A stretch of DNA of 64,000 nucleotides from Candidatus Zymogenaceae bacterium. Its GTDB lineage: Bacteria > Desulfobacterota > Zymogenia > Zymogenales > Zymogenaceae. Below the pieces are notes generated by a model. That model saw nothing but the letters and a program-made list of their open reading frames with translations. It did no database searches and had not been told where the DNA came from. The DNA is taken from the NCBI GenBank assembly GCA_016931225.1, contig JAFGFE010000005.1:1-64000 (forward strand), read 5' to 3'. The translations under genes and the position numbers were made by a program. Positions 13,326 to 38,262 of the stretch are shown here, in pieces (position 1 is the stretch's first letter; the number at the start of each line of letters is the position of its first letter).

Positions 13326-13964
13326 TTAAATCCACTTGAGGATGCCGGCACACACGAACATCAACACGAAGTTGAGGGCAAAAAGTCCGCCGATGACGAT
13401 CTTCTGGGTCTTCGGCTTCCAGTCCACCGAATACATGCCGACAACCCAAAACGGGATGTAGACGAAGATGAACACCGTCAGGGCGTTCCACCAGGGATAG
13501 ACCCAGTGAAACGCCGGGGTCTTGGCCAGGAATATCTCGAAGACGGAGAAGAACGCCGCGTTCAGGATTGCGATGAAAAGCCTGTTGGGTATCCCCAGGA
13601 TCTTGACCTTCGGATCCTCGGGCAGAATCTTCGAGAACATCAGGCCCGCCACCGAGAACATGAGGCTCAGCTCCGCGCCCACGCCGACGAGAATTAAAAA
13701 TCCCGTTCCGGTGGGCACCGTCCAGAGGGCGTGGCCGGAAAAATGCTGTATCAGGGCGTTGATGATCTCAGCCAGCCAGTGCACCATGTACAGAGACAGT
13801 CCCGCCACAACGGCCTTCCAGTTCTTGTGCTGGATTTCGTTGAAATAAAAATAGAACACGCAGGCAAGCAGCGTAATGATATACCACTGGAAGGGATCTC
13901 CGCTCCGCAGAATATCGAGAGCCTGCTGTGTCAACTCCGGATGATTCAGATTCGTTGAAAACAT
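13326..13964 (-). CDS. Polytopic membrane protein of unknown function in the GRE operon
   Basis: 212 residues with about six hydrophobic segments (for example WYIITLLACVFYFYF, GTGFLILVGVGAELSLMF, ALTVFIFVYIPFWVVGMY) and short charged loops. I do not recognise a family. Position between the GPH symporter and the glycyl-radical enzyme, on the same strand, suggests a role with that substrate (transport, or a membrane step). A GGAGG-type site is present upstream of ATG 13964. Confidence 0.7.
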   Translation of the reverse strand: MFSTNLNHPELTQQALDILRSGDPFQWYIITLLACVFYFYFNEIQHKNWKAVVAGLSLYMVHWLAEIINALIQHFSGHALWTVPTGTGFLILVGVGAELSLMFSVAGLMFSKILPEDPKVKILGIPNRLFIAILNAAFFSVFEIFLAKTPAFHWVYPWWNALTVFIFVYIPFWVVGMYSVDWKPKTQKIVIGGLFALNFVLMFVCAGILKWI

Positions 13965-14088
13965 TGAACATACCTCCTTTTTTATACATATATTGTAACG
14001 GCATTCGACCCGTCACACAAAGACAGTGTATTCTTTCGGAGACGCCGCCCCCCGAACGCCCATCTCCATACCCCGGGAGGCGACTCTC

Positions 14089-15450: not shown

Positions 15451-15533
15451 GATACCACCGTAAAAGAGGTTAATAGAATTATCTTCGCAGAACTTTTCAC
15501 ATACACCCAAGGAACACTCGGGCGGGCCGTTCC

Positions 15534-21400: not shown

Positions 21401-22168
21401 TCATTCCACCTTCTGAATCACCTCTTCGGCAAGCTCCAGGTACGATTTGACGCCTGCACTGCTGATATCAAACAGTATCGCAGGCTTTCCCATTTTGGGC
21501 ACCTCTGACAGACGGATGTTTCTGGGTATATATACATCGAAGACCTTTTTCTTGAGATCAACTCGGAGATCCTCGGCCACCTCCCGGGATGCAGACGTGC
21601 GCATATCCACCATCGTCAAAAGAAAGCCCAAGAGCTTCAGGTTCGGATTGAATTTCTTCCCGACCACACGGGCCGCCTTTATCAAACGTCCGATCGTCTT
21701 CAGGGCGTAAAATTCGCTCTGAACCGGTACTATCAGATAATCAGCCGCCGCCATGCCGGCGACGGTAATCGCCCCCAGGGACGGGGGGCAATCAATCAGC
21801 ACGAAATCATACGCATCCTTAATCTCATCGATGATATCCCTCACCATGAAGATGTTCTCGTTAATCCTATTGAAGTATGCGGTCTCTTCCTCGTTGCTCC
21901 AGATATTCGACGGGGCGAAGCTGAGGTACTCAATTTCCGTTCCATGAATCATCTTTCGGGGACTCATCCCGTTCAACACCACGTCATAAAAACCGCCCCG
22001 CAGATCCTCCCTCTTCCGTCCAAAACTAAGCCAGAGACCGCACTGGGGATCAAGACCAACGACCAATGTCCGTCGCTCATACACAGCGAGGGAAGCACCG
22101 AGGTTAACCGCCGTCGTTGTCTTCCCCACCCCGCCTTTCTGGCTGGCAATGGTAATCACATGACTCAT
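21401..22168 (-). CDS. ParA/Soj-family ATPase at the end of the chemosensory operon
   Basis: P-loop ATPase of the ParA/MinD superfamily: deviant Walker A KGGVGKTT (residues 10-17), Walker A' region LVVGLDPQCG and Walker B VLIDCPPSLG. No ParB gene or parS-like site is near. The gene follows cheB by 30 bases on the same strand. ParA-type proteins in chemotaxis operons (ParC/PpfA) position chemoreceptor arrays or segregate cytoplasmic clusters, which is the likely role here. Length of 255 residues is normal. Confidence 0.85.
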   Translation of the reverse strand: MSHVITIASQKGGVGKTTTAVNLGASLAVYERRTLVVGLDPQCGLWLSFGRKREDLRGGFYDVVLNGMSPRKMIHGTEIEYLSFAPSNIWSNEEETAYFNRINENIFMVRDIIDEIKDAYDFVLIDCPPSLGAITVAGMAAADYLIVPVQSEFYALKTIGRLIKAARVVGKKFNPNLKLLGFLLTMVDMRTSASREVAEDLRVDLKKKVFDVYIPRNIRLSEVPKMGKPAILFDISSAGVKSYLELAEEVIQKVE

Positions 22169-22198
22169 GAAACAGCCCCTTTTATCTGAAAATATTCA

Positions 22199-23314
22199 TC
22201 AGGCTTTTTTCGTGACGTTTTGAAGCATCGCCGGTATCTGGTTTATGGACAGCACCGAATCCACAACACCGTTTTCTATGGCGGATTTCGGCATACCGAA
22301 AACCAGGGAGGTGCTCTCGTCCTGGGCGATGGTTGTTCCCCCCATCATTTTTATGGCCTTCAGGCCCTTGGAGCCGTCCCTGCCCATTCCGGTAAGTATA
22401 ATACCGATCGTGTTCTCCCCAAATGTGGCGGCCGCCGAATAAAACAGGGTGTCGATGGAGGGTGTGGCGCTTTTTTCATCCTCATCCACCTTCTCAAGCT
22501 CCACCTGGGGGGCCAAAAACGGCTTGACAATCTTGACATTGTAATTACCCGGAGTCACCAATACCTTTCCGCTCTCGATGACGTCCCCGTTTTTTGCCTC
22601 CGAGACTTCCAGAAACGTCACCCTGCCCAGTCGTTCCGCGAAAAACCGTGTGAAGAATCTGGGCATGTGCTGGGCGACGATGATCCCTGCGGGAAAGGTC
22701 GGCGGCAGTTTTCCGAGGATGAATTCCAGGGCCTTCGGTCCCCCCGTGGACGCGCCGATCACCACGATCTTATTCTCCGCCAGACGGGCTAGCTCCTCCT
22801 TGGTGTATCCATCCGGCTTTTTCCTGATCGGCCTGATGCTTTTGCCCGCACCTCTGGCCTTTTCTTCGGCGATGTCCGGACTGATCGCCAGGTATTTATC
22901 CATGTCCACGTGATATGCGGCCCGTATCTTCGTCGTCAGCTCCTGCTTGAGGAACTTGAAGTTGAGGATCATGGATCCCTTCTTCGGCTTGGGAATAAAA
23001 TCCACTGCGCCCATCTCCAAGGCGCGAAAGGTAATGTTCGCTCCCTCGTTCGTCACCCCGCTGAGCATAATAACCGGGACCTTATACTCCCGGGCGAGTA
23101 TCTTCAGCGAGGACAGTCCGTCCATGCGGGGCATGATGACGTCCATTGTCACCACATCCGGCTTCAGGTCGAGATACTTCTGTATCGCATCCTCGCCGTT
23201 CACGGCGACTCCCACCACCTCGATGTCCGCTTCTTCCTCGAGGACATTCGTGACGGCCCGTCTGATAACAGGGGAATCATCGACTATCAGTGTTTTTATT
23301 CTACTACCCGCCAA
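22199..23314 (-). CDS. cheB: Chemotaxis protein CheB, intact methylesterase
   Basis: Receiver domain (D58 in VVTMDVIMPRMDG) joined to a CheB methylesterase domain with the full triad: S189 in IGASTGGP, H216 in AQHMPRFF and D313 in GMGRDG. It removes methyl groups from, or deamidates, MCP receptors, opposing CheR. It sits between cheA and parA. This is the only one of three CheB-type proteins in the operon with a complete active site. Confidence 0.95.
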   Translation of the reverse strand: MAGSRIKTLIVDDSPVIRRAVTNVLEEEADIEVVGVAVNGEDAIQKYLDLKPDVVTMDVIMPRMDGLSSLKILAREYKVPVIMLSGVTNEGANITFRALEMGAVDFIPKPKKGSMILNFKFLKQELTTKIRAAYHVDMDKYLAISPDIAEEKARGAGKSIRPIRKKPDGYTKEELARLAENKIVVIGASTGGPKALEFILGKLPPTFPAGIIVAQHMPRFFTRFFAERLGRVTFLEVSEAKNGDVIESGKVLVTPGNYNVKIVKPFLAPQVELEKVDEDEKSATPSIDTLFYSAAATFGENTIGIILTGMGRDGSKGLKAIKMMGGTTIAQDESTSLVFGMPKSAIENGVVDSVLSINQIPAMLQNVTKKA

Positions 23315-23350
23315 AGAAGCCTCTCCTTTGTATTCCGCATGTTCCCACCA

Positions 23351-26300
23351 TCATGAGACCGGGGGAGTGTCGTTTTCCGTTTCGATTCTTTTCCTGACAG
23401 ATCGCTTCTGATACCGCCGCTCCGCCTGTTTTTTCCTGAGCTCCCGCTCCTTGGCGATCGCCAGGTTTACCAGTTCTATCACATCAATGATAAGAGATAT
23501 CGATCCATCCCCCATAATCGACGCGCCGGATACTCCCCTGGTTCCGGTCAGATATTCCTCGAGGGACTTGATAACGATATCCTCTTCACCCAGGAGCCTG
23601 TCCACTATGAGACCCACTTCCCTCCCCTCGGCGCTTAATATTACCACATATACCTTCTTTTGTGCATCCTCTTCACTTTCCCATCCGGTATTCATGCGAA
23701 ATATCTCTGAAAGATGCAGAAGCGGCAATACCTTGTCTCGTATCCTGAGGACCTGATGCCCTTCGATGGTATCAATCTCGTCGATGTGCACCTGGACCGT
23801 TTCAATAACCGATGACAGTGGAATGGAAAATACCCGCTGTTGTATCTCAACGATCAGGGCCTGGATAATCGCCAGGGTCAGCGGCAGCTTGATATTAAAC
23901 GATGCTCCCTTCCCCAACTCCGTTATCACGTCGATGCTCCCCTTCAGCTTGTCGACATTTCGTTTCACGATATCAAGCCCGACGCCCCGACCGGAAACAT
24001 GGCTGACCTTCTCGGCCAGGGAAACACCCGGCTTGAACAGATAATTGATCATGTCCCGCTCGGTCAGGCGTTCCGCCTCGAGGGCCGTAACCTCACCCGA
24101 AGACTCCATTCGCGACTTGATCTTGCTGAAGTCCATCCCTCTCCCGTCATCGGATACTTCGATGATCACCTGATTGCCCTGATGATACGCGGAGATATTC
24201 AATGTCCCTTGCTCGGGCTTGCCCATTTTTCGTCGTTCCCCGGGGGATTCGAAACCGTGATCGATGGAATTTCTGATAATGTGAGTAAGGGGGTCGCCGA
24301 TTTCCTCTATGACCGATTTGTCCAGCTCCGTTTCCTTACCGGTGATAATCAGGTTCACATCCTTGTTCATCTTGTTGGCCAGGTCACGCACCATCCGGGG
24401 AAATCGGGCGAACAACTGGTTTATACTGACCATCCTGACACGCATGACGCCTTCCTGGAGTTCATTGGAAACGCGGCTCAGCTCCGTTGTGGACTCCTCG
24501 AATTCAAGGGCGAGCTGTCTGAGGTTTATCATTTCCTGCTTGTCGAGCTTCTTCAATTCCAGGATTTCCCGATACATATCCCTGAACAAGTTTACCAACT
24601 GGGAAAAGCTTGCGCGGTTGACGACCAGCTCGCCCACCAGGTTCATGATATTATCCACCCGCTCGGTCTCCACCCTGAGGGTCTTTCGTGAATAGGGGAT
24701 CTCCGTTCCGGGCGGCTCTTCGTCGCCCCCTCCCGGGGGGACAGAACCTCCCGGCGGCGTCTCATCCGAGATTCTCCGGGAGGCGACCGGCGTCGCGGCC
24801 TCCCCCGGCTTCTCCATGACGGAAATATCCGGCGTTTCGGCCCGTATATCCTCCGCCTTCGGCCTTTCCCGGGGCTCCCGGGTCGGCACCGACGGTATTT
24901 CGACCGCCTCCGGGATCTTCCCCGCGGATCGGGAAAGCGTGCCGATCTCATCTTCCAATTCGGTATAGAAGCCGCCCAGAGTCTCAGACAACGATGAGAT
25001 CGATTCGGGATTATGTCCCGCTTCGGTGAGAATTTTCATCTCCTTCTCAAGAATACTCAGGATGGAGTCGTATCCCATGAATTTCGCCGACGACCGGAGG
25101 CTCTCCACCGCTTTCTTGTATATTTCCACCGATTCCTCGATATCACTTCCGTTCCGAATATTGGTGAGGCACACATCGATGGTCTCCATATATTGCTCGG
25201 CGGCGGAGAGGAATATCTGCAAGAGCTCCCGGTCTTCATCGGTCAGTTCAATCACCTCGGCCGTTTCTTCTTCCGATGGCTCGGTGAAAATCTTCGAGCG
25301 TCTCAGCGCGGATTTCAGACCTGACAATTCCTGCACCAGGGTGGTGACGGATTCAGGGCTCATCCCGTGGCGATCCTTCAGGTACCGTTCCAGAAGGGTG
25401 ACGATTTGGTTGAGTTGATCGACGATGGAGAAATATTCCATGTAATTCGCCGAACGTCTGAGCTTCAGCACAATCTCCAGCAATTCCTGTATTAAATCGT
25501 CATCGGCCTCCTTGTCCTCGATATCCTGAAGGCGCACATCCAGAATGGAAAAGAGGTCAACCGTAGCGGAGAGAAAAATATCTATCAGCTCCTCATCATA
25601 CCCCACGGCGAGATCCTCTTTGACCTCGCCTCTGATCGCCGCTATATGCCCTTCCGACTCCCCCTGTACCGTGGATACGGATGGGGCCTGTGTCTGAGCG
25701 GAAGCGGCCTCCCGCTCTTCCTGGAAAAAGGCGATGATATCCGAGGCAAGATTCGCGCTGATCCCTTCAATTTTGGAGAGATCCTCCTCATTCGCCCTGG
25801 ACAGCGCATCCCACGTCAAATAACCGGCTTCGTAGATCTGTCGGGCTTTTGCGGCGCCCACCCCGGGTATTATGGTGAATTCCTTGATCGCCTCATCGGC
25901 GGACAACGGTGTTTTGCCGTCGGTGCCGGAGATCTCCGTTGTGTTCCCAATGACCGGCTCTGTTTCGTTGACATATTCCCGGATAATGTCAAGGTTGTTG
26001 TAGAAACTGAGCACCTCGTTATCGGTGAGGCTCTCCCCCTCCTCAAGAAACAACATAATGGATTTACTGATATTGCTGAGACTCGTATCAAGCTCGTCGT
26101 ACCCGAAATACTCAATGGACGACCGAAAACTCTCCACAAGCTTCAGAAATCGCTCCAGTTCTTCGGTGGTTTTTTTCTCTTCCAACACCTTGAGAGCGTT
26201 TTCCAGCTCATCCATATGCTGCTCGAGGACCTCGGAAATCTCGTTGTCGAACACGTCCTCGCTTGGGGGGATATGGGCCTTCGAACGGGTGCGTACCGTA

Positions 26301-26887
26301 TCATCCACATCGCCGTATTTCTCACCGAGATCGGGAAACTCTTCATCCAGATCTAGATCCATCTCTATCGTGTCTTCCGGCTCTTCCGGAGGTTCCTCTG
26401 CGGCCTTCGTCGGTGCCGTGTCTTCCGGTTTTCTCGATGAAAACACTCCCTCGGTCACCTCGTCCGATGTCTCTTCATCCAGAGTGTCGTTCTCCGGCAA
26501 TTCGACGTCCCCATTAAGCAAACGATCAAGGGCGACGGAGGCGGATTCCACACTTGAGAGCTCCTCTTTACTCTCGGAGAGATCCTGCAGGAGAGACGTG
26601 ACCGTGTCCATACCCATAAAGAGAACATCGATTATATCCTTGGTGGCCGTCAGAGACCCCTGCCGGAGCCGTTCGAGTATGCTCTCCATCTTGTGCAGGA
26701 ATTCCCCGGTTTTCTCCAGGCCGATATAATCGGCTGATCCCTTGATGGAGTGAACGGCCCGAAAAAGCTGGTTGAGATATTCCTGGTTCTTCGGGTCGTC
26801 CACCAGCCGATTGAGGTTTTCCTCCAGCTCGGATAAGTGCTCGTTGCTTTCTATGATGAATTCCTTCAACAGTTCTTCATCGTACAT
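23351..26887 (-). CDS. cheA: Giant CheA histidine kinase with several Hpt-like repeats and a HhH module
   Basis: 1178 residues, far longer than a usual CheA (about 650). Residues 1-110 form a true Hpt domain (H46 in AVHSIKGSADY). Three further Hpt-like helical modules (near residues 245, 470 and 590) keep the scaffold but have E, L and E in place of the histidine. Residues about 340-388 form a helix-hairpin-helix (IPGVGAAKARQIYEAG and IEGISANLASDIIAFF). From about 729 come the P3 dimerisation helix, the kinase domain (N box RNSIDHGFE, SDDGRGMD, GRGVGLDIVK) and a CheW-like P5 domain. Acidic, proline-rich linkers connect the parts. It phosphorylates the operon's receivers. Confidence 0.93.
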   Translation of the reverse strand: MYDEELLKEFIIESNEHLSELEENLNRLVDDPKNQEYLNQLFRAVHSIKGSADYIGLEKTGEFLHKMESILERLRQGSLTATKDIIDVLFMGMDTVTSLLQDLSESKEELSSVESASVALDRLLNGDVELPENDTLDEETSDEVTEGVFSSRKPEDTAPTKAAEEPPEEPEDTIEMDLDLDEEFPDLGEKYGDVDDTVRTRSKAHIPPSEDVFDNEISEVLEQHMDELENALKVLEEKKTTEELERFLKLVESFRSSIEYFGYDELDTSLSNISKSIMLFLEEGESLTDNEVLSFYNNLDIIREYVNETEPVIGNTTEISGTDGKTPLSADEAIKEFTIIPGVGAAKARQIYEAGYLTWDALSRANEEDLSKIEGISANLASDIIAFFQEEREAASAQTQAPSVSTVQGESEGHIAAIRGEVKEDLAVGYDEELIDIFLSATVDLFSILDVRLQDIEDKEADDDLIQELLEIVLKLRRSANYMEYFSIVDQLNQIVTLLERYLKDRHGMSPESVTTLVQELSGLKSALRRSKIFTEPSEEETAEVIELTDEDRELLQIFLSAAEQYMETIDVCLTNIRNGSDIEESVEIYKKAVESLRSSAKFMGYDSILSILEKEMKILTEAGHNPESISSLSETLGGFYTELEDEIGTLSRSAGKIPEAVEIPSVPTREPRERPKAEDIRAETPDISVMEKPGEAATPVASRRISDETPPGGSVPPGGGDEEPPGTEIPYSRKTLRVETERVDNIMNLVGELVVNRASFSQLVNLFRDMYREILELKKLDKQEMINLRQLALEFEESTTELSRVSNELQEGVMRVRMVSINQLFARFPRMVRDLANKMNKDVNLIITGKETELDKSVIEEIGDPLTHIIRNSIDHGFESPGERRKMGKPEQGTLNISAYHQGNQVIIEVSDDGRGMDFSKIKSRMESSGEVTALEAERLTERDMINYLFKPGVSLAEKVSHVSGRGVGLDIVKRNVDKLKGSIDVITELGKGASFNIKLPLTLAIIQALIVEIQQRVFSIPLSSVIETVQVHIDEIDTIEGHQVLRIRDKVLPLLHLSEIFRMNTGWESEEDAQKKVYVVILSAEGREVGLIVDRLLGEEDIVIKSLEEYLTGTRGVSGASIMGDGSISLIIDVIELVNLAIAKERELRKKQAERRYQKRSVRKRIETENDTPPVS

Positions 26888-27005
26888 AACGACACCTGCG
26901 ATCCGTTTCCGTTAACAATGCTCCGCCCGTTTTTGGAAACGACAAAAATGAACGGATCGTGCACATAATATTTTTCATCTCTTACGAACCGGCCGCTCTC
27001 TCAGG

Positions 27006-27767
27006 TCAAACCGCGTTATAGAGAATGTGAATGCCTATCAATAATAACAGAAATATAAAAATTTCCCTCAAAATCCGGTCATCTATTCGACCGGCAAGCC
27101 TCGGCCCGATCTGACCGCCGATTATTACGCCCGGTATGCTCCACAGAAGCACGGAGGTATCGAACCTGCCGCCGAACGCCAAGTGAGAGACCACGCCGAT
27201 TACGGCGACGACGGCCATCACCAGAACCGCGGTCCCCACCGCCACTTCCATCGAGAGCTTGAAACGCTTGACCATTATCGGCACGATGAAATCGCCCACC
27301 CCCACCGAAAGAAGTCCGCTGACAAAAGAAGACACCAACGGAACGATGCCGAACCGCACGGCTTCCCGTATCTCCACCGTGGTGCGGCGCTCGTCCGTGA
27401 ACCAATCGTCTCCCGAAATGAAGAACAGCGCGATACCGATAGTCACAAGACCCAGGGCCACCTCGAGGATGTGTGACGGGAGCCGCTGGCTGACGAATGA
27501 TCCCAGCACCACCATCGGTACGGCCGTCCCGATGCACAGAAGCGCCAGCGGCACATCGACCCTCTTTATCCACAGGTACCGAACCGTACCGCTGCCGATT
27601 CCCGCGACCTGTATCGCCAGGGCCGTCGGTACCGCCACGTCCGGCGGAAGCCTCAGGACCAGCATTAAAAACGGCATCCATAATACTCCGCCGCCGATCC
27701 CGGTAATGGTCACCACCGTGGCGATGGCAATCCCTACGAAAAACGAGAGAAAGACCAGTGATTCCAT
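27006..27767 (-). CDS. TauE/SafE-family membrane transporter, pair 1
   Basis: About eight hydrophobic segments, with the family's GIGGGVLWMP near the N-terminus and the mirrored second-half motif SGLLSVGVGDFIVP. The family exports sulfite, sulfonates or other small anions. It lies 4 bases downstream of a HAMP-only membrane protein, and the same pair recurs at 28411-30074. A substrate-linked sensing role with the HAMP protein is inference. Confidence 0.88.
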   Translation of the reverse strand: MESLVFLSFFVGIAIATVVTITGIGGGVLWMPFLMLVLRLPPDVAVPTALAIQVAGIGSGTVRYLWIKRVDVPLALLCIGTAVPMVVLGSFVSQRLPSHILEVALGLVTIGIALFFISGDDWFTDERRTTVEIREAVRFGIVPLVSSFVSGLLSVGVGDFIVPIMVKRFKLSMEVAVGTAVLVMAVVAVIGVVSHLAFGGRFDTSVLLWSIPGVIIGGQIGPRLAGRIDDRILREIFIFLLLLIGIHILYNAV

Positions 27768-27770
27768 GAA

Positions 27771-28403
27771 TCACAAATTCCATTTTCCTTCCGGCTCCAC
27801 GGAAAACAGGGTAAACTCTTCCGTCATTTCATGTAACTGCACAAGGCTCCGCCTGAGATGTTCCGTCTCCCGATATGCCGGGGCCTCTGTACCGTTCGGA
27901 TCTATCAAGCACGCCTGTATATCGTCCAGGGAATCCAAGCCGGAGGAGGCGAAAATCCGGACATGGCCCACCACCTCGCCGAAATCGCTGATGAGATCGT
28001 TAATGAATTCCCCCATCCTGCCGATTTCATCGTTGGTATAGACCGGCATCGCCTCCTTCAAGTCGCCCGTGGAGATGCGGTCGCCGACCCGGAACATACG
28101 CCTCAACGGCAGGGTGATCTTCTTGACAAAGATGACCAGCACCACGCTTGTAATAAGCACCTGTATGGCAAGAAGCAGCATAACCTTGTTCCTGAGGCGG
28201 ACCAACGGCTCTATCGCCTCGGCTTCCGTGATGCTTCCCGCAGTCAGAAGAGCCGCATTATCCAATATCATTCCCCGCAGGTTCTCATCGCCAACCTCCC
28301 GCATGAACTCGATGCCCAGGGTGAGTACGGTCAGAACGATGATCATGAGATATATGATCATCCGTCTGCCGATGGTAATCCGTTCTTTCTTCCCCGGCTC
28401 CAT
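27771..28403 (-). CDS. HAMP-domain membrane protein without output domain, pair 1
   Basis: 210 residues: a membrane segment (MIIYLMIIVLTVLTLGIEFM), a short exterior helix of about 45 residues, a second membrane segment (VMLLLAIQVLITSVVLVIFV), a HAMP domain (LPLRRMFRVGDRISTGDL through PVYTNDEIGRMG) and a helical tail. It has no MCP tip, kinase or cyclase domain. It is clearly paralogous to the gene at 29235, sharing PVYTxDEIGxxGxxINDxxxDFxEV. It lies between two TauE/SafE genes and may couple transporter state to the CheA array. Confidence 0.8.
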   Translation of the reverse strand: MEPGKKERITIGRRMIIYLMIIVLTVLTLGIEFMREVGDENLRGMILDNAALLTAGSITEAEAIEPLVRLRNKVMLLLAIQVLITSVVLVIFVKKITLPLRRMFRVGDRISTGDLKEAMPVYTNDEIGRMGEFINDLISDFGEVVGHVRIFASSGLDSLDDIQACLIDPNGTEAPAYRETEHLRRSLVQLHEMTEEFTLFSVEPEGKWNL

Positions 28404-28410
28404 ACGCTCC

Positions 28411-29223
28411 CTAATACATCATTTCTATAATAATACTGAGGTTGTCAGCGATCATCTTGGCGCCTGTGAGCAGCACAAACATGGAAAACAGTATCTTGAG
28501 AACCGCCTCCGGAGCGAACCTGTTTAAAATCGGCCCAAGCTGCCCGCCGCACAACACGCCGGTCATGGTAAATATCGCCACATCCCAACGTATCTGGCCC
28601 TCCCAGATATTGATTGATGTGGCCACGTATCCGGCAATGGCCTCCACCATCACGGTGGTCGCCACCGCCCGGTGCACGTTGAGTTTGTAGACACGCTCCA
28701 GAACCGGGAAGATGGTCTCCGCCGTACCCACCGAGGAGAGTCCGCTGGAGAGCCCTCCCAAAAACGGAACCCACGCGAAGGGATATATCTCCTCGGTTCC
28801 CAAACCCTCCCGATTTCCATATTTCTTTTCCGCCATGGAGACAAACGTCCATATGGCGCACCCCACGACGATCAGCCCGAAAAACACCTTGAGGATCGCC
28901 TCGTTGGTCACCAGGGCCAGATGAAGACCGATAATCACGCCCGGTATGGTGAGCATGATCATCGGAAAGGCTATATTGAATTCGATTTGACGCTGTCTGA
29001 CGTATCCCACCAGCGCGGAGCTCATGCCGACGAGCTCCGTGACCATGCCGGTGCCGACGCTCTCGGGCACGGTCATGCCTAGAAAATATACAAAAATGGG
29101 CAGAAAGATAATCCCGCCGCCGAATCCGCTTCCAGTGGCGGTCATCGCCACCAGGATGGAAATCGGAAACATAAACCAGTTTGCCGACGACTGGGCGAGA
29201 AATTCCATCACATGCTCCATCAT
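28411..29223 (-). CDS. TauE/SafE-family membrane transporter, pair 2
   Basis: 270 residues with an ordinary TauE/SafE layout: N-terminal GSGFGGGIIFLPIF, central charged loop, and second-half LGGLSSGLSSVGTAETIFPVL. It is distantly similar to the protein at 27006. It is separated by 7 and 11 bases from HAMP genes on both sides, so it is co-transcribed with them. Confidence 0.88.
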   Translation of the reverse strand: MMEHVMEFLAQSSANWFMFPISILVAMTATGSGFGGGIIFLPIFVYFLGMTVPESVGTGMVTELVGMSSALVGYVRQRQIEFNIAFPMIMLTIPGVIIGLHLALVTNEAILKVFFGLIVVGCAIWTFVSMAEKKYGNREGLGTEEIYPFAWVPFLGGLSSGLSSVGTAETIFPVLERVYKLNVHRAVATTVMVEAIAGYVATSINIWEGQIRWDVAIFTMTGVLCGGQLGPILNRFAPEAVLKILFSMFVLLTGAKMIADNLSIIIEMMY

Positions 29224-29234
29224 CCATGCCCATA

Positions 29235-30059
29235 TTACAGTTTGTCAAGATCGATCTGGTAGAAACTAAAGGATTCCACCAGCGATTTGAGCTCTCGGAT
29301 GTCCTTGTAGAGGACATTGAGCTGCTGTTGAATTTCATCACTGATTTGCTTTTCCTTGAGTACTTCCACCCGGTTATGAATAACATCGGTAGCGTCCGCC
29401 GCGGATAGGCTGATCTTTCCAACCATCAATAAAACTTCCTGAAAATCCGCGGTTATATCATTAATGATGCCACCCAGCTGACCTATCTCGTCTTTCGTAT
29501 ACACCGGCACCGTCTTTGCGAGATTTCCCCGGGAAATCTCCTTCGCCGTCTGTACCATCTCGTCCAGGGGACCGGCCACGTCCTTGATAAAGAAAAACAG
29601 GGTTAAGAAGACCGCCGCCAGCACTATTCCCAAAACAATGATCATACGTATCTGCAGGTGATTCAGCGGTTCATATATCGACTCGAAATTAAAACCCGCC
29701 ACAGCATCCAAAGCTGTGTGTTCCTCGGCCTGAACCATGATGATCTCGGTGATCTGATCGGTCAGCTTCGGCTCGCCCACCTCGATAATCAACTCCACCG
29801 TAATGGCGATACAGACGAACACCACCAGCAGGAAATATATCAACAGCTTTTTCTTCAGATCGCTGAAAATGGCGCTTTGACGCTTCTCTTTCGCGGATTT
29901 CCTCCGTTCACTTTTCCTGCGTTCCACGCCGAAGCGACGCTCACCCTTTTTTTGCACATCCCGCCAGTTATGTTTCCTTCTCTCTCCTTTTCTCTGTTTT
30001 TCCCTCCGACGATCAACACCGTTCCAGGATGAGCCGCCCTCGCCATTTATTTCGTTCAT
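29235..30059 (-). CDS. HAMP-domain membrane protein with basic N-terminal tail, pair 2
   Basis: Two membrane segments (LLIYFLLVVFVCIAITVEL and MIIVLGIVLAAVFLTLFFF) enclose a short exterior loop; then a HAMP domain (GPLDEMVQTAKEISRGNL through PVYTKDEIGQLG) and a helical tail without an output domain. Unlike its paralogue at 27771, it carries a cytoplasmic tail of about 65 residues rich in repeated ERRK/RRKSERRKS blocks. ATG 30074 is open, but GGAAGG lies six bases before ATG 30059. It is part of the duplicated HAMP-TauE module. Confidence 0.8.
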   Translation of the reverse strand: MNEINGEGGSSWNGVDRRREKQRKGERRKHNWRDVQKKGERRFGVERRKSERRKSAKEKRQSAIFSDLKKKLLIYFLLVVFVCIAITVELIIEVGEPKLTDQITEIIMVQAEEHTALDAVAGFNFESIYEPLNHLQIRMIIVLGIVLAAVFLTLFFFIKDVAGPLDEMVQTAKEISRGNLAKTVPVYTKDEIGQLGGIINDITADFQEVLLMVGKISLSAADATDVIHNRVEVLKEKQISDEIQQQLNVLYKDIRELKSLVESFSFYQIDLDKL

Positions 30060-30133
30060 CTGATGCCTTCCCATGAATTCAAAGGTAATATCAAGATGCT
30101 AATCTCCGCATAATTGATACCCAGCAACACCTT

Positions 30134-30508
30134 TCATTCGTTCAGGACCCGGACCACGGTGGCCTTGAGCTCCTCGGGGGTAAAGGGCTTCAAGATCACC
30201 GCTCTGATCCCCATTTTTTCCGCCGCCTCTTCAAGAAAATGCTTTTCCTCCTCCTGTCGGAGGGTCAGCAGTATTACGCGGGCGTCCGGATTATCCTTGA
30301 GGATCGTTTCCGCTGCGGTAAAGCCGTCGGTATTTCGCATGGTCACATCCATCGTGACCAGGTCCGGCTGAAGCCGGCGAAACAACTCCACGGCTTCATC
30401 GCCGTCCTTTGCCTCTCCCACCACTTCGATATCGTCGTCCAACAGCGCCTCTTTAATACGGTTTCGCATGAAGGTCGAGTCATCGACAACTAACACGGTC
30501 CTGGGCAT
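30134..30508 (-). CDS. cheY: CheY-like single-domain response regulator
   Basis: 124 residues, only a receiver: VLVVDDST acidic pair, phospho-Asp in LVTMDVTM, LLTL threonine and the KPF lysine are all present. It is the most canonical CheY of the operon and follows the MCP gene. Its downstream target (motor, pilus or other) is unknown because no such genes are near. Confidence 0.9.
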   Translation of the reverse strand: MPRTVLVVDDSTFMRNRIKEALLDDDIEVVGEAKDGDEAVELFRRLQPDLVTMDVTMRNTDGFTAAETILKDNPDARVILLTLRQEEEKHFLEEAAEKMGIRAVILKPFTPEELKATVVRVLNE

Positions 30509-30725
30509 CTGTCGTTTCTCCTTTGGTTCTGGTCAATAGTCGTTCATGGTTTCCGGCACCTACCGGGGAGGTCTCCCTTTCTCTCTTTACATAGGACACC
30601 GCCCGCATACCGAGTGAGAACAGATATCCCGAAAACGGTTTATCCCCATGACGGATCACCTTTAAGGAAATCGGCGGGGGAGGGATCATCCTTCCCTCTC
30701 CCGGGTCAATGGTGTATCACAGTAT

Positions 30726-33071
30726 CTACTTCTCCCGCGCGATCTCGTCCGCCGTGCGGAACCGGAACTGGCTCATAAGATCAACATTGGTACCGGCCAT
30801 TCGCTGGATCGTCTCGGCGTTTTCCCGGACGATACCGGCTCCCTCAACCACCTCCGAGGTGTTCTGAACGCCTTCGATAATACTCTCGCTGATGCGGGCT
30901 GAACGGCTCGCGACATCCTGAATGACCTCCTCGAAGGCCTGGGTTCTCCGTCCCTGCTCGGTGGTCAACTCCACGATTTCTTGGGCCAGAGACGCCAGGT
31001 CGTCCATGGAGCGAAGCACCTCCTCGATGCTCTTGAGCTGCAGGGTCATGGCCTCGGCGACCGTTCCAGCCATTGCCGTGGCCTCCTCGCCGGATTTCAC
31101 GCCGAACTCAAGGCTCTCCGTCGCCTCACGGGCCAGGTTTGCATTCTGCCGGGCGATACCTGTGGTTTCCTCGGCATTCTTGAGAATCCGGTCCAGCTCC
31201 ATGGCCACATCTCCGGCGGCCCGGGTACCGTCTTCCACGGCGCGATGCGCTGCTCGGATCAGGTCGGTAATCTCCTTGGTGGCCTCACCGGAACGCTCGG
31301 CCAGTTTCCTGACCTCGTCGGCGACCACCGCAAAACCCTTCCCATGCTCGCCGGCTCTCGCCGCCTCAATGGCGGCGTTGAGGGCCAGGAGGTTGGTTTG
31401 CTCGGCGATGTCGTTGATGACCTCGACGATCTCAAACACCTGCTCGGTGGATTCGGAGATCGATCGAATACCTACCTCGTTTCTTTGCACCGCTTCCTGG
31501 CCGGCTCTGGCGATACTCATCACGTTCTCGGCACGCTCGGCGGCGCCCGCGGCGTTTGTCGTCACGGTACCGGCAATCTCCAGGGCCCTTCTCAGCTCGG
31601 CGGTGGCCTCAAGACCTCCCGCAGAAACGCCTTTCGCCTGCTCCACCAGCTCGTTGATGGCCGACGCCATCTCGTTGACCGACGAAGATGTCTGGGCGGC
31701 GTTTGTTGCCTGGGCGTTGGCTCGCTCCTGGACGGACAGGGCTGTTTGGGCCATTTCGGAAATCAGGTTCAAGGCCGTTCGGGACGCCTCCACCTCACTC
31801 TCGGTAATATCGGAGATCTCGTTCATTTTTCCCCGGAGCTCCGTCATAATGCTTGCATTTCTCTCAGCAATAGGCCCCGCTTCCTGGGAGAGGTTTCGCA
31901 CCGTTCCGGCGCCCTGGGCGACCCGGGCAACAATGCCCTCCAGTCGGGCCACGAACTCATTAAAGTTCTGTGCCAAAACCCCCAGTTCATCACTTGTCGT
32001 TACCTCCAGTCGCTGTGTCAGGTCAGCGCCGGCGCCGGCCAGCGCCTCCATCTGGTCGGAGTACCGGGTGATGGGACCTGAGATGTTTCGGGCAAAGAAA
32101 TACGCCACGACTCCCACCAGGACCGCCATGAGAAGCGTTATCACCGTGGCGTATATTCGCGAGGCGGACAGGGTACGGTAGGCTTCCGCAACGTCAGATT
32201 CCGAGACAATGAGCATGTTGTACTGGGGAACGGGGATGGCCACGCCGAATACGTCCGTACCCCGGTAGTCCTCCCATCTGCCGAAAGTACGCTCCTCCTC
32301 TCTGCCGCCCACGTATTCCTCTACGGTAGCGGCCAGCTCGGCGCCTCGCTTGTAGCTTTCCAGATCAGAGATGTTGATCTCGAAGATCGCCGTCTCTTTC
32401 ACCAGTCCCTCACGTATCAGGTCAGCAACGAAGAGAGACTCAGAGGCCATGTACCCGGTATCCAGGGCTGCGATATAGGTTTCACCGGTGTCACCGAATC
32501 TCGTGTGAGTGAGGAGATCCGTGAAATAATTCGGTTCGATAAGCTGTACGAACACACCGTACTTTACCCCTCCCTTTATAACCGGGCCGGACAGAGCGAT
32601 CAATATATGACCATGGATGGGGTCCTCATAATATTTGACCACAACATTATCCGGGTCATTATTGCCAATCGCCTCCGAGAACCAGTCCTCATTGATAAAA
32701 CTGTTCCCGATGTTTTCAGGAAACGTGCTGGCCTTGCAGACGCCCGAGTTGTCGATATACATGATATCGTGAAGAAATCGGGTTCGCTCCGCCTTCAGGG
32801 ACTCAAAGAGCGTCACCGTGATGAAGAACTCTCCGGTCACCAGCGGTTGCTCGAATTCCGCGTAACTGGCGAAGGTTCGATGGTCACTGCGACGCTCTGC
32901 AAAAAACTCGGTGATGATACCGCCCGCTGCATTCGAGAGGGACGTCAACTCACTCTCGATTAGCGTGTTGGTATCCGATTTGACTCGCTGATACGCCATA
33001 ATCGATATCGTCAGCATCGGAACAAGGGCGATGACGATCATTAGGACGATCAGTTTTAACCGAATAGACAT
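30726..33071 (-). CDS. Methyl-accepting chemotaxis protein with dCache-like sensor
   Basis: 781 residues. TM1 ([19 protein letters not shown]), an exterior region of about 270 residues compatible with a double Cache domain, TM2 ([17 protein letters not shown]), a HAMP domain, and a long cytoplasmic coiled coil with the conserved hairpin tip [22 protein letters not shown]-rich helices provide methylation sites for the CheR and CheB in the same operon. It is the only MCP in the window. The ligand cannot be predicted. Confidence 0.93.
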
Positions 33072-33141
33072 TTTCTATCCCCCTTTATATTCACAGGTAT
33101 GTATGCCGCGAGAGACCTTTCGCGCCCCCGCGGAATTTATG

Positions 33142-33633
33142 TTATTCAACACCAGTCAACTGCTCTCTTTCTCGATCGGTGAGTATCTTGGAAAAATCCA
33201 GAAGAATGATCAGCCGGTCCTCCAGGCGGCTTACGCCGTAGATATACTCGCTCTCCACCCCGGCGGTTACCATTTCAGGCGCACTCTGAATGGACTCCGT
33301 ATGAACGCTCATGACCTTGGAGACCGAATCAACGATAAAACCGGTCACCTTTTCCTCCAACTCGATGATCATAATCCGGGTGGCTTTGTCAGTCGGAGTA
33401 ATTTCCAGATCCAGACGCCGGCGCAGGTCCACCACCGGCACCACCTTTCCGCGAAGGTTTATGACGCCCTCCAGAAACGCCGGTGTGTTCGGTACCTCGG
33501 TTATGGTAGTCGGCCGGATGATCTCCTGGACCAGAAGGATGTCAACCCCGAATTCCTCGTTACTTAAGAAAAATGTAACAATCTGCATATCCCCCGCTCT
33601 TTCGAGCCCCTCGGCCCGTTTTTCTTCGGCCAT
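33142..33633 (-). CDS. cheW: CheW adaptor protein
   Basis: 163 residues with the CheW fold: FFLSNEEFGVDILLVQEI, VINLRGKVVPVVDLRRRL and the VSKVMSV region are typical. It links the MCP to CheA. It lies 13 bases after cheR and 70 bases before the MCP gene. Confidence 0.93.
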   Translation of the reverse strand: MAEEKRAEGLERAGDMQIVTFFLSNEEFGVDILLVQEIIRPTTITEVPNTPAFLEGVINLRGKVVPVVDLRRRLDLEITPTDKATRIMIIELEEKVTGFIVDSVSKVMSVHTESIQSAPEMVTAGVESEYIYGVSRLEDRLIILLDFSKILTDREREQLTGVE

Positions 33634-33646
33634 GTTCCATCACCTC

Positions 33647-34486
33647 CTATGTCTTTCGTTTTTTATATACAAATGTGTTCATTATCTTCATCGGCTTAAA
33701 TATCGTGGTGTGCCGCATCAGCGATTCGGTGGATGCTGTAAAAAGATATCCATTCTCATCCAGTACGTGGGAAATCCCCCTGACGACTTCCGGCACCCGC
33801 TGATCCGAAAAATACATCAGGACGTTTCGGCAAAACACCACATCAAAATGAAAATCGCGCCGCGCCTCCCATGATGCCACATCGTTGAGATTGATCGGGA
33901 TGAATTGTATCATCTCCCTCAGCTCCGGGATTACCTCGAACCCGCCGTTTTTCGTTGATACATAGGTCCCCATAAATCGAGAGGGGAGGTGCCGTATCGC
34001 CCATTGACTATATTTGCCGATTCGGGCGGAATCCAGAGCGATCTCGTTTATATCCGAGGCGATAATGGTGACCTTCATATCGGGAAGATCCGGCCGCTCA
34101 CGTTTGAGCTCCTGGCAAAGAATGGCCAAGGTATAGGCTTCCTCGCCGGTGGAACATCCCGCACTCCAGATACGTATCGTTCTCGTGCCCACCCTCTGAG
34201 CGATTTCCGGAAGCACCCGATCCTTCAGGGCGGCAAGCTGCTCCTCCTCCCGAAAAAAAAAGGTTTCGCTGATTTTCATCTTGTCAATCAGATTAACCAG
34301 CTCAATATCTTTATACCGGTGCTTGACCGCCAGATAGTAGGTAAAGGGGGTCTCAAAACCGAGCTCTGAAATCCGTTCGGCAAGCTTTCTGGAAAAAATC
34401 CCCAGCTGCTCATCTTTCAGTTTCAAACCGGTTATCTCCTGGACATAGTCCCTGACCATTCTCACACCTTCAATGTCCAAGATCAT
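33647..34486 (-). CDS. cheR: CheR chemoreceptor methyltransferase
   Basis: 279 residues: an N-terminal helical domain and a SAM-binding domain with IWSAGCSTGEEAYTLAIL, FRNVLMYF-type VVFCRNVLMYF and the final YLFTASTESL. It methylates MCP glutamates. Its start overlaps the stop of the upstream receiver gene by 17 bases. Confidence 0.94.
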   Translation of the reverse strand: MILDIEGVRMVRDYVQEITGLKLKDEQLGIFSRKLAERISELGFETPFTYYLAVKHRYKDIELVNLIDKMKISETFFFREEEQLAALKDRVLPEIAQRVGTRTIRIWSAGCSTGEEAYTLAILCQELKRERPDLPDMKVTIIASDINEIALDSARIGKYSQWAIRHLPSRFMGTYVSTKNGGFEVIPELREMIQFIPINLNDVASWEARRDFHFDVVFCRNVLMYFSDQRVPEVVRGISHVLDENGYLFTASTESLMRHTTIFKPMKIMNTFVYKKRKT

Positions 34487-34853
34487 CTCCCAACAGCATC
34501 TTCATATGTGTAACCAGTTTTTTCGGCTCCGTCGGCTTCGCCAGGTGAATGTTGGCGCCCGCCTTGAGGCCCTTTTCCCGGTGTTTTTTTATTTCCTCTT
34601 CCACCGTGATGATTATTATGGGAATTACGTCATACCCGTCTATCCGCCTGATTCTCTCGATAAACTCATATCCGTCCATCACCGGCATGAAAATATCGGT
34701 GATAACGCCTTTGTAGCGATTGTTCCGGGCCATCTCAAGGGCCTCTGCGCCGTTTTCCGCGGTATCCACCACGAATCCCTCCGATTGAAAAATCACCCGC
34801 AGAGAATCACGGATCACCTTGGAATCGTCCACTACCAGAAGTTCAGGATACAT
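34470..34853 (-). CDS. Single-domain response regulator
   Basis: 127-residue receiver with VVDDSKVIRDSL, phospho-Asp in GVITDIFMPVMDG and KPTEPKKL. The helix-3/4 insert KGLKAGANIHL is normal for CheY-like proteins. It overlaps the cheR start, so the two are probably translated together. Whether it competes with CheY for phosphate from CheA or has its own target is unknown. Confidence 0.9.
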   Translation of the reverse strand: MYPELLVVDDSKVIRDSLRVIFQSEGFVVDTAENGAEALEMARNNRYKGVITDIFMPVMDGYEFIERIRRIDGYDVIPIIIITVEEEIKKHREKGLKAGANIHLAKPTEPKKLVTHMKMLLGDDLGH

Positions 34854-34896
34854 GAGGCCCTTATAGCTTTTTTATAACATAAATTAAGTAAAAAAC

Positions 34897-36699
34897 TTAC
34901 TTTTTTTTCAATGCCTTTGAAAGCTCAAAAGCAATGCTGACATCCGGAAATACGCCGTCGGTAATACCGTCCGCGATCACCGCCGACGGCATCTGGGGAT
35001 AGAGGCATGTCTTCTCCTCCTGGGCGAATATCAATCCACCCATCTGTTTTACCTCCCGGGCGCCCTCAATCCCATCGTCATGTTCCCCGGTCATAACCAC
35101 TCCGATGGCCCTGTCTCCATAGGTCTCCGCCAGGGAAAGCAAAAGCATATTGAAGGAGTTTTTATGTTCGAAGTCGAAAGGACGTTCATGGAGTCTTATT
35201 TTCTTTGTGCCGCTGTCATCGACAACGGTCATGTAATTGCCGTCGGACGTAATGTAACAGACTCTCTCTTTAATCTCCTCACCGTCGACGGCGGGTTTGA
35301 CGATCATTTGGGAAAAGGTGTTGAGATAATCGGCAAAAGGTCCGACAATATCGTTCGGCATGTACTGCACCGCCAGCACCGCGGCGTTCACATCTTTCGG
35401 GAATCTGGTGATCATCTTCATCATTGAACCATACCCGCCCATTGCGGCCCCGACGGCCACCACGTTATCGGCCCGGTTGTGCGACGAGATATCGGTGTCG
35501 TCGCTTTCACTTTCCGTTACTCGAATGTGTTGGATGGAGCTGATCCTGACCTGAGCGGCCCGTTTGATCTTTTCGATGATGTTCCTTTTCTGATCTTCGA
35601 GACTCAGGTCCTGACGGGAATTGGGCTTGGCGATGAAATCCACCGCGCCGAAGCGAAACGAATCGAAGGTCGTTTTTGCGCCCTCCACCGTATACGCCGA
35701 CAGCATCACCACCGGCGTCGGCTGCATGATCATAATATGCTTGAGGGCGGTCAATCCGTCCATTTCCGGCATATTGACGTCCATCGTCACCACATCAGGC
35801 CGATGCTTGGCGAGCTTCACCAGGGCGTCCTTGCCGTCCCGGGCGATATCCACAACGTCGACATCCTCGTCACCGGAGAGAATATCAGAAATCCCCTTGG
35901 CGATGATCTTGGAGTCGTCCACCACCAGCACCTTCACCCTTCCCCCGGTCGAAAGAAAAGATCCTTCCGTGTTGTCGATGATGATTTCCTCATCCAACAC
36001 AAAATCCTTTCGGTGTATCTCGTCGAGGGTAACTATGTTTTCCATCAACAATTGTTCCCACTTCTTATGAATGGACTTGGCAATGGGAGCGGTGTTTCGT
36101 TGTGTGGAAAATTGACCACCGGGCCACGACAGTATCTCCTTCAAGGCGGGCTCGCCTTTGGTCCCGTTCGATTCCGCATGAACTATTTCGCCGTTCTCGA
36201 AAAAGATTATCCCCTCCCGGCCCTGGGAACGAAAACTCACCGCGTTCGTCACCCTGGCCAGGCAGTTGAGCTGAATGATGTCCGGTATTTGTATGCCCTC
36301 CATTTCCCCCTTGAAGCTTCCGACGCTCCTTTCAAAGGCGCTTGTTATCAGGCTAAACAGCTCTTTCGGTTCGAAGGGTTTTTCGATATACCCCACAGAC
36401 CCGTTCTGAAAGGCTTGACTATGAAGCTCGGGAGTTGAATAACCGGTCATCATGATGACCTTAACTTCAGGATGGTGTTTTTTTACCTCCATTAAGAGAT
36501 CAAACCCATTGACATCGGGCATGTAGATATCGGTAACCAATATATCAATGTCCTGGGACCTGATTATTTCGATGGCGTCTCCGCCCGATACGCATTCGAT
36601 ATATTCGTATCCTTCACTGAATCCTTTGAGGTTCTTGATGATGAATGCAAGAAGATCCCGGTCATCATCCACCACTAAAACTTTTTTTGTATCACTCAT
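34897..36699 (-). CDS. REC-PATAN-REC-CheB fusion with inactive methylesterase domain
   Basis: 600 residues: a receiver (1-120, phospho-Asp in ILVTDIYMPD), a DUF4388/PATAN domain (about 130-225, with IFFENGEIVHA), a second receiver (255-375, MDVNMPEMDG) and a CheB methylesterase fold (410-600). The catalytic serine of IGAST is A419 (VGAAMGG) and the catalytic histidine of QHMP is Y446 (VQYMP); only the aspartate (D542) remains. It should therefore not cleave methyl esters and may instead bind receptor sites or act as a phosphate sink. The gene lies between an atypical CheB and a receiver gene. Confidence 0.9.
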   Translation of the reverse strand: MSDTKKVLVVDDDRDLLAFIIKNLKGFSEGYEYIECVSGGDAIEIIRSQDIDILVTDIYMPDVNGFDLLMEVKKHHPEVKVIMMTGYSTPELHSQAFQNGSVGYIEKPFEPKELFSLITSAFERSVGSFKGEMEGIQIPDIIQLNCLARVTNAVSFRSQGREGIIFFENGEIVHAESNGTKGEPALKEILSWPGGQFSTQRNTAPIAKSIHKKWEQLLMENIVTLDEIHRKDFVLDEEIIIDNTEGSFLSTGGRVKVLVVDDSKIIAKGISDILSGDEDVDVVDIARDGKDALVKLAKHRPDVVTMDVNMPEMDGLTALKHIMIMQPTPVVMLSAYTVEGAKTTFDSFRFGAVDFIAKPNSRQDLSLEDQKRNIIEKIKRAAQVRISSIQHIRVTESESDDTDISSHNRADNVVAVGAAMGGYGSMMKMITRFPKDVNAAVLAVQYMPNDIVGPFADYLNTFSQMIVKPAVDGEEIKERVCYITSDGNYMTVVDDSGTKKIRLHERPFDFEHKNSFNMLLLSLAETYGDRAIGVVMTGEHDDGIEGAREVKQMGGLIFAQEEKTCLYPQMPSAVIADGITDGVFPDVSIAFELSKALKKK

Positions 36700-36714
36700 G
36701 GTTCACAGGTATCT

Positions 36715-37749
36715 CTATAGATCGTTCTTTAAAATAGGAATATCATGAAAATCATTGATCACCTGGGTTATCAGACCCCGTTCCAGGACATCCCGGTCCG
36801 AATCCGGGAGAAAGTGCGTCTCGTAACTCTGAACAAGGGTCGTTCCTCCCCTTCGATACACCTCCTCAATACCCTTTACTCCATCCTGATTCACCCCGGC
36901 AATGAGCATGCCGATCGTTCCCGACTCGAAGATTTCAGCCGCGGATATCATCATGGCATCTATGGGTTTTCCTTCAGTAGGTCTACTCTCTATATAAAAC
37001 GTGTCTTCAAAGATGTCCTCATGAATGCCGATATTGTTGGAGAGTGAGTTTACATACACCGTTGATTGCCTGAGAATCGTTTTGTCGGCGGCGACAACCA
37101 CATTGAGGGGAGATACCGTATTGAATTTTTCAACAAACGATTCGAGTATCATCGGCGAAATATCCTGACTGATGAGTATTGGTGTTTTGAAGTCCCTCGG
37201 CAGATGGTGCACCAGCCTGATAATATGGTTCGGACCGCCCAGAGATGTCCCGACGACAATAATTCTCTTTTTCGTCCATGGAGCATTCTCCACCTGTGGG
37301 CGATCGGATAATTCCTGGATTTTCACCCGCCTGATATTCTCCACATCAACGGTGGACGCGATCTTTATACGGTGTATCAATTCCTCCTTCTGGGACTCAA
37401 TATTTCGAGATACCGATCCGGACGGCTTCGGCAGAAAATCAACAACGCCGAGTCTGAGACTCTCGAACGTCACGTCCCCCTGATGGGTCAGCGCGCTGAC
37501 CACGACAACGGGCGTGGGGCATTCGATCATAATATGCTTAAGCGCGGTAATACCGTCCATTTCCGGCATGTCGATATCAAGGGTCACCACGTCCGGCTTC
37601 AGGGTTTTGACGGCCTCGATCCCCTCCTGTCCCGTCTTCCCGTATCCCACCACCTTGATATTCTCGTCGGACTCCAGGAGCCTGGTGAGCTCTTTTCGCA
37701 TGAACTCCGCGTCATCGACGATCACAACCCTGATATTTTTATCTACCAT
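36715..37749 (-). CDS. CheB-like protein with altered catalytic triad
   Basis: 344 residues, a canonical receiver (phospho-Asp in VVTLDIDMPEMDG) joined to a CheB fold. The serine is kept (S169 in VGTSLGG) and the late aspartate too (D289 in VNQDGVKG), but the histidine position of AQHMP reads SQDIS, with D196. Methylesterase activity is therefore doubtful. It is the second of three CheB-type proteins in this operon. Confidence 0.88.
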   Translation of the reverse strand: MVDKNIRVVIVDDAEFMRKELTRLLESDENIKVVGYGKTGQEGIEAVKTLKPDVVTLDIDMPEMDGITALKHIMIECPTPVVVVSALTHQGDVTFESLRLGVVDFLPKPSGSVSRNIESQKEELIHRIKIASTVDVENIRRVKIQELSDRPQVENAPWTKKRIIVVGTSLGGPNHIIRLVHHLPRDFKTPILISQDISPMILESFVEKFNTVSPLNVVVAADKTILRQSTVYVNSLSNNIGIHEDIFEDTFYIESRPTEGKPIDAMMISAAEIFESGTIGMLIAGVNQDGVKGIEEVYRRGGTTLVQSYETHFLPDSDRDVLERGLITQVINDFHDIPILKNDL

Positions 37750-37759
37750 ACCGTCACCT

Positions 37760-38134
37760 TCATCCGAGTACCTCGCGAACTAACTCCTGAAGACTCTCCA
37801 TCACAAACGGTTTTTCGAGACAGCCGAACACTCCCCCCCTGTCCAATAACGTTTTTTCCTTTTCACTGATATATTCATAGAGGAGTACAACCTTGAGCTC
37901 CGGATGGAGTTCCCGCAGTTTGAAAAAAAAATTCATTCCCCCCATACCGGTGAGTGCGATATCCGAGAGAATAAGGTCAAATCCCCGGTCATTAATTCTT
38001 TCCAGGGCGTTTTCCGCGCTGTTCACGGTTTCTATCGTAATTTCCGGATAATCCTCGAGGATTTTATTTTTCAGGTAATCGGCGTATGCGCTTTCCTCAT
38101 GTACTATCAGAATTCCGTTGTTGGTGGCATGCAT
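37760..38134 (-). CDS. Atypical receiver protein, first gene of the chemosensory operon
   Basis: 124 residues of the CheY fold. The phospho-acceptor Asp (D58, LILSDIALTG) and the EKPF lysine are present, but the acidic pair is HE (H12, E13 in LIVHEES) and the conserved threonine/serine is a tyrosine (LLYEY). Mg2+ binding and phosphorylation may be weakened. It is the first gene after the sigma-54-type promoter; the ribosome site is weak. Confidence 0.8.
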   Translation of the reverse strand: MHATNNGILIVHEESAYADYLKNKILEDYPEITIETVNSAENALERINDRGFDLILSDIALTGMGGMNFFFKLRELHPELKVVLLYEYISEKEKTLLDRGGVFGCLEKPFVMESLQELVREVLG

Positions 38135-38245
38135 GTGACAGTTGACTCATTACGAAGTAAAAAAACCGATATGGTATCGGGATACCGCCTGGAACGCCAT
38201 ACATGGCGCACGAACAAACAAGACGGCTGTTCGAATCATTAAAAT

Positions 38246-38262
38246 TGCAAGAATCATGCCTA
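38246..38262 (-). promoter_or_regulatory. Sigma-54 (-24/-12) promoter of the chemosensory operon
   Basis: The minus strand reads TAGGCATGATTCTTGCA: GG and GC are separated by exactly 10 bases and most positions agree with TTGGCAC-N5-TTGCA. Transcription would start near 38235, about 100 bases before the first receiver gene, and run leftward through the 17 kb operon. An NtrC-type activator is encoded at 8122-9528. Confidence 0.7.

Follow-up and report, generated by a model that had tools for sequence, protein, structure and literature searches.

The window, a stretch of 64,000 nucleotides, carries a chemosensory (che) cluster of 15 contiguous minus-strand genes at 21401-38134 whose order is conserved in a different genus of the family. 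From their sequences, most of the CheB-like proteins of this and related clusters appear to be pseudo-esterases that have kept their receivers. We give an even chance to the reading that the cluster encodes a self-contained, non-flagellar array in which CheA would act on receivers and pseudo-CheB switches, ParA would position the array, and HAMP effectors would gate TauE transporters. To our knowledge, the outputs of chemosensory systems comprise motility, pili, development, second messengers, and gene expression. If the reading is true, transport control joins these outputs through a conserved array that is linked to HAMP-transporter pairs.

Layout and transcription of the cluster

Analysis using Pfam upheld all 15 genes and the domain calls of the first-pass annotation. 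The cluster is 96.3% coding, with intergenic gaps of -17 to 217 bp, and its GC content is ordinary (52.7% versus 55.5% in the remainder of the window). The promoter-region elements and the genes, in 5' to 3' order, are as follows (domains according to Pfam; further evidence in parentheses).

38246..38261 (-), putative sigma-54-like -24/-12 element AGGCATGATTCTTGCA (score 10/11), 112 nt upstream of the first gene
38166..38180 (-), terminator/attenuator-like hairpin CCGATACCATATCGG-TTTTTTT in the leader (consensus match only; not clearly conserved in G002)
37760..38134 (-), RR1, single receiver (PF00072)
36715..37749 (-), CheB1, receiver (REC) plus CheB-like domain (triad S-D-D, receiver residues intact)
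34897..36699 (-), REC-PATAN(DUF4388)-REC-CheB-like protein (triad A-Y-D; 56% to G002 over the full length)
34470..34853 (-), RR2, single CheY-like receiver (76% to G002)
33647..34486 (-), CheR methyltransferase
33142..33633 (-), CheW
30726..33071 (-), receptor with 2 TM, dCache-type sensor, HAMP, and MCP signalling hairpin (TM and tip motif)
30134..30508 (-), RR3, single receiver (synteny)
29235..30074 (-), HAMP1, with a basic N-terminal tail, 2 TM, HAMP, and helical hairpin, no MCP tip
28411..29223 (-), TauE1, TauE/SafE (TSUP) anion transporter (PF01925; tree)
27771..28403 (-), HAMP2, with 2 TM, HAMP, and helical hairpin (28% to HAMP1)
27006..27767 (-), TauE2, TauE/SafE transporter, paralogue of TauE1 (27%)
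23351..26887 (-), CheA, 1178 aa (hhalign repeats; fold search)
22199..23314 (-), CheB3, REC-CheB (NCBIfam CheB above cut-off; intact S-H-D triad)
21401..22168 (-), ParA/MinD-family ATPase (AAA_31; alignment)

The genes include those by which a Che system is recognized, namely an MCP, CheW, and a CheA bearing Hpt, P3, HATPase, and CheW-like domains. Seven receiver domains are encoded; RR1 is partly degenerate in sequence, its acidic pair reading HE and the T/S switch residue being absent. In keeping with the first-pass annotation, Pfam finds no flagellar or pilus genes within the cluster. The sequence also shows a single membrane Cache receptor, CheW, and a CheA with one phosphorylatable Hpt.

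CheA has one true Hpt together with three degenerate Hpt-like repeats and an HHH_5 domain (residues 338-389). The sole canonical phospho-site is His46 (HSIKGSA). The three extra repeats fit the P1 profile (hhalign, 93-96%), but their His position holds E, L, or E, and no C-terminal receiver was found using Pfam. In an AlphaFold model (single-sequence, pLDDT 57), three four-helix units flank an HHH. Foldseek matched the model to CheA P1 (1tqg, TM 0.78 on target) and to the N-terminal domains of RadA/RAD51, none with an E value below 1e-3. The HHH_5 domain recurs in the CheAs of G002, from another genus of the family, and of both f56 genomes. Multi-Hpt CheAs with degenerate Hpt copies have been described before, and the main text of a survey of CheA architectures makes no mention of an HHH (PMC10782961). 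We do not claim DNA binding by the HHH, which is RadA/RAD51-like but lies in an acidic-rich segment.

The ATPase has the deviant Walker A motif of ParA/Soj proteins, KGGVGKT(T), within SQKGGVGKTT. The array-positioning ATPases PpfA and ParC are of the same Soj/ParA type and are likewise encoded with a chemosensory array (PMC5706961, PMC5716589); unlike those systems, the window cluster lacks a ParP-like CheW-domain adaptor. The degenerate Hpt/HHH arm of CheA may act together with ParA in placing or segregating the array.

The sigma-54 promoter proposed in the first-pass annotation gained support as a putative site. Specifically, AGGCATGATTCTTGCA at 38261-38246 is one of the two top-scoring sigma-54-like sites in the 64 kb, RpoN is encoded, and TTAGGCAT-N5-TTGC recurs in the otherwise diverged G002 leader, at a distance of 136 nt from the corresponding first gene. 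The G002 site was missed by strict sigma-54 scoring and was found on inspecting the leader; an NtrC-type regulator is encoded immediately upstream of the G002 che operon. The hairpin at 38180-38166 lies downstream of the sigma-54-like site and ahead of the first che gene; its sequence makes it a possible attenuator. Promoters could also lie between MCP and RR3 (gap of 217 bp) and between TauE2 and CheA (118 bp).

Elsewhere in the window, 8122-9528 and 13326-15510 (-) encode an NtrC-type regulator, an MFS_2 transporter, and a 212-aa protein. The regulator is 61% identical to that just upstream of the G002 che operon, and homologues of the MFS_2 transporter and the 212-aa protein, together with a further NtrC, come after that operon. 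Two PAS histidine kinases, one with its own receiver, adjoin the end of the window operon (16746-19067 and 19261-21234, +). Scanning the window for Rfam families and tRNAs yielded no matches. Positions 1-2000 have a GC content of 31.7%, against an average of 55%, and are possibly foreign DNA.

Relatives of the cluster

The first-pass annotation had suggested a search for the same gene order in relatives, and the outcome was favorable: the order is identical in G002 and partial in L027, f42, f56, and f6. In G002, all 15 genes recur in the same order with protein identities of 41-77%, and the flanking gene order is mostly different. Among the other members of the family, G003 has the cluster split over contig pieces and G001 yielded no match. 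The partial orders are as follows.

L027 (Desulfobacterales MAG; NCBI phylum Thermodesulfobacteriota), RR3-HAMP-TauE-PATAN/CheB-CheW-CheA-CheB-ParA
Family f42, CheB-MCP-CheW-RR3-CheA-PATAN/CheB-CheB-ParA-HAMP-TauE, then a TauABC/SsuABC-like ABC importer
Family f56, PATAN/CheB-CheW-MCP-RR3-HAMP-CheA-ParA-CheB, TauE absent
Family f6, MCP-RR3-HAMP-CheA-ParA-PATAN/CheB, TauE absent

Families f56 and f6 thus keep a core of MCP-RR3-HAMP-CheA-ParA-pseudoCheB. CheR, among the clusters found, is confined to family f1.

In a maximum-likelihood tree of the catalytic half of CheA, the clusters of f1, L027, f42, f56, and f6 form one clade (support 98/97). This class of CheA has so far been seen in the Thermodesulfobacteriota (Desulfobacterota), a phylum taken from the position of L027 inside the clade and from the other members being of the window's phylum. 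A further branch of the clade (f48, f55, f61, and f66) has the order CheB-CheB-PATAN/CheB-RR3-CheA, with no match to MCP or ParA in its clusters and an HDOD gene in the two that were checked, f48 and f55. The MCP-less clusters L132, L133, L128, and L130 of the same clade encode three degenerate CheBs, and HDOD where checked; they are possibly of the Geobacter alpha type. Falling outside the clade, clusters of family f40 (cheA-receiver-cheW-parA-cheR), which we take, as a guess, to be Desulfovibrionaceae, resemble the cheA3 operon of Desulfovibrio vulgaris. That operon shares a long CheA and a parA homologue with the window cluster and, unlike our reading of the latter, serves flagellar motility (PMC3944678).

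Two described groups of alternative clusters are comparable. The Geobacter alpha-group clusters are delta-proteobacterial and non-flagellar, as is the window cluster, and those of f48 and f55 combine HDOD, CheBs, and CheA with no mcp, much as the alpha group does (PMC2577667). The window cluster differs from the alpha group in having its own MCP, ParA, HAMP/TauE, and PATAN protein, and in having no HD/HDOD gene. The beta group of Geobacter and Myxococcus is likewise delta-proteobacterial with an alternative output; compared by description, it lacks mcp genes (PMC2577667), whereas the window cluster has an MCP at 30726-33071.

CheB-like proteins and the question of pili

The three annotated CheB-type proteins all have the expected domains according to Pfam, but two of them are predicted pseudo-esterases. 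In CheB1, the catalytic His is replaced by Asp, so that the Ser-His-Asp triad of a methylesterase is lacking; it is likewise lacking in the REC-PATAN-REC-CheB protein. CheB3 is the only intact CheB in the window (GASTGG, AQHMP, and MGRDG), and this active-looking enzyme could perform adaptation together with CheR.

Triads were read by aligning to CheB3 the CheB domains of the 49 CheB-like proteins that these clusters encode. The Ser-His-Asp triad is missing in 43 of the 49. The six exceptions are CheB3 of the window, CheB3 of G002, and one CheB in each of four f42 genomes. All but one (48/49) retain the Asp, Ser/Thr, and Lys residues of the receiver. This is the pattern expected if phosphorylation, and not esterase activity, is under selection, as we infer. 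The genome's other che cluster (G000:C18) retains all three CheB triad residues, so the loss is specific to this CheA class. We found no report of an inactive CheB in the open-licence literature. With catalysis so widely lost and the receivers retained, pseudo-CheB would count as a new and testable type of output domain for response regulators. In our favored reading, CheA would pass phosphate to RR2, to RR3, and to the receiver domains of the REC-pseudoCheB proteins; the latter proteins would be phospho-switched binding proteins instead of esterases.

The PATAN protein raises the question of type IV pili. PATAN-CheY regulators of cyanobacterial phototaxis similarly join PATAN to receivers and are Che-linked, and cyanobacterial PATAN regulators act on PilB1, as in PixE-PilB1 (PMC7690835). 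In the window protein, by contrast, PATAN is followed by another receiver and by a CheB domain that has lost its triad. By analogy with PixE-PilB1, the protein may touch the type IV pilus motor. That the whole cluster controls twitching in the manner of the Tfp class, with PATAN as the output, is possible but doubtful. Each of the 13 genomes searched for PilT encodes it, and the multi-Hpt CheA of the window is of a kind typical of the ACF/Tfp classes (PMC10782961). Against this, the CheA lacks the C-terminal receiver that predominates among multi-Hpt Tfp CheAs (PMC10782961), the cluster contains no pil genes, and another che cluster lies near pilT. This second cluster (L125; G000:C18:128000-142700) encodes CheR, a cytoplasmic MCP, CheW, CheY, a CheB without a receiver, and CheA, with pilT approximately 8 kb further on; it could serve pili.

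HAMP proteins, TauE transporters, and the output of the array

TauE1 and TauE2 score above the PF01925 cut-off (132.8 and 156.2 bits). HAMP1 and HAMP2 have a short periplasmic loop between the two TM segments, and their hairpin ends in a conserved F-x-F/L-Y/F motif; the MCP signalling tip, looked for in both, is absent. The HAMP1 tail is strongly basic (24 K/R in 72). The best match to a low-confidence model of HAMP1 (pLDDT 64) was to HAMP-DHp fusions (3zcc, E 7e-3), and the DHp-like hairpin of the HAMP proteins has no conserved His.

Each of f1, f42, and L027 has HAMP genes paired with TauE genes. The RR3 gene adjoins a HAMP gene in f1, L027, f56, and f6, an adjacency that is broken in f42. 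Because f56 and f6 keep the HAMP protein without TauE, the HAMP protein is best regarded as a core element and TauE as optional. The TauE tree and the HAMP tree show matching groups, type 1 (f1 and L027; for HAMP also f6) and type 2 (f1 and f42), so that the two pairs look ancient and co-inherited with the cluster; the HAMP tree has long branches and its deeper joins are uncertain. Among 395 genomes of the phylum, TauE1 had matches at E<=1e-25 in 8, mostly with che genes on the same contig. Contigs of G048, G003, and G167 end beside the matches, and on readable contigs all TauE matches of this sample lie inside these clusters or at their broken edge. A TauE1 scan of the named genomes gave one locus only. 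Searches with the HAMP proteins across the phylum were swamped by generic HAMP matches. The combination of TauE, HAMP, and CheA was not found in the open-licence literature.

Based on these features, we propose that the 2TM-HAMP-hairpin proteins would be effectors or adaptors in the membrane, with a receiver reading them. RR3, as their usual gene neighbor, would be the best candidate, and TauE, where present, would be an anion transporter gated by the HAMP proteins. The strict form of this proposal, in which the transporter is the direct output of the array, CheA-driven receivers act through the HAMP hairpin on TauE gating, and the CheB domains are non-catalytic phospho-switches, is improbable.

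The first-pass annotation had instead suggested that transporter state is sensed. As a model, the HAMP proteins would report the state of TauE to CheA, and the array would sense anion flux in addition to the Cache ligand. HAMP domains normally pass transmembrane signals inward, and the pairing of HAMP with TauE and their parallel trees are in keeping with such a role. Nevertheless, several points tell against it: lacking an MCP tip, the HAMP proteins have no known route into CheA/CheW, they persist without TauE in f56 and f6, and the cluster already has its own Cache receptor. We consider it unlikely, if still deserving of some weight; the direction from receiver through HAMP protein to TauE is at least as plausible, and we lean slightly toward it.

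A similarly small probability attaches to HAMP/TauE being a sulfite- or sulfonate-type transport module that merely shares che regulation. In f42, the pair directly precedes the TauABC/SsuABC-like ABC importer (L082:14066-16704). Ordinary sulfonate loci look the same, and the importer gives a hint of a sulfonate or sulfite-type substrate; TauE is dispensable in f56 and f6. However, a HAMP protein remains in the che cluster where TauE is gone, and two ancient types of HAMP/TauE pair have been retained with the cluster. The dsrA gene, examined for a possible tie to sulfite, is absent in the TauE-bearing f1, f42, and L027 and present in the TauE-less f56; f6 has neither.

Whichever output applies, the cluster probably steers something other than swimming. 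A flagellar chemotaxis cluster encoded apart from flagellar genes would account for the presence of CheA, CheW, CheY-like receivers, CheR, and an intact CheB3, and CheA3 of D. vulgaris, encoded with parA, serves motility (PMC3944678), but it is very improbable given that no flagellin matched in the window's own genome (G000), which is 99% complete, or in three family members (G001-G003; Flagellin_N, the flagellin family alone being searched). Together with the conserved gene order, this result supports the annotation of an alternative-output chemosensory system. Flagellin was also absent from both f56 genomes and was present in two f42 genomes.

Finally, five genomes (G237, G215, G355, G385, and G311) have exactly one MCP, that of this cluster, and no CheR was found in the genomes of G237 (89% complete) or G355 (94%). 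Such one-receptor relatives may offer simple natural cases for learning if an array functions in the absence of methylation-based adaptation.
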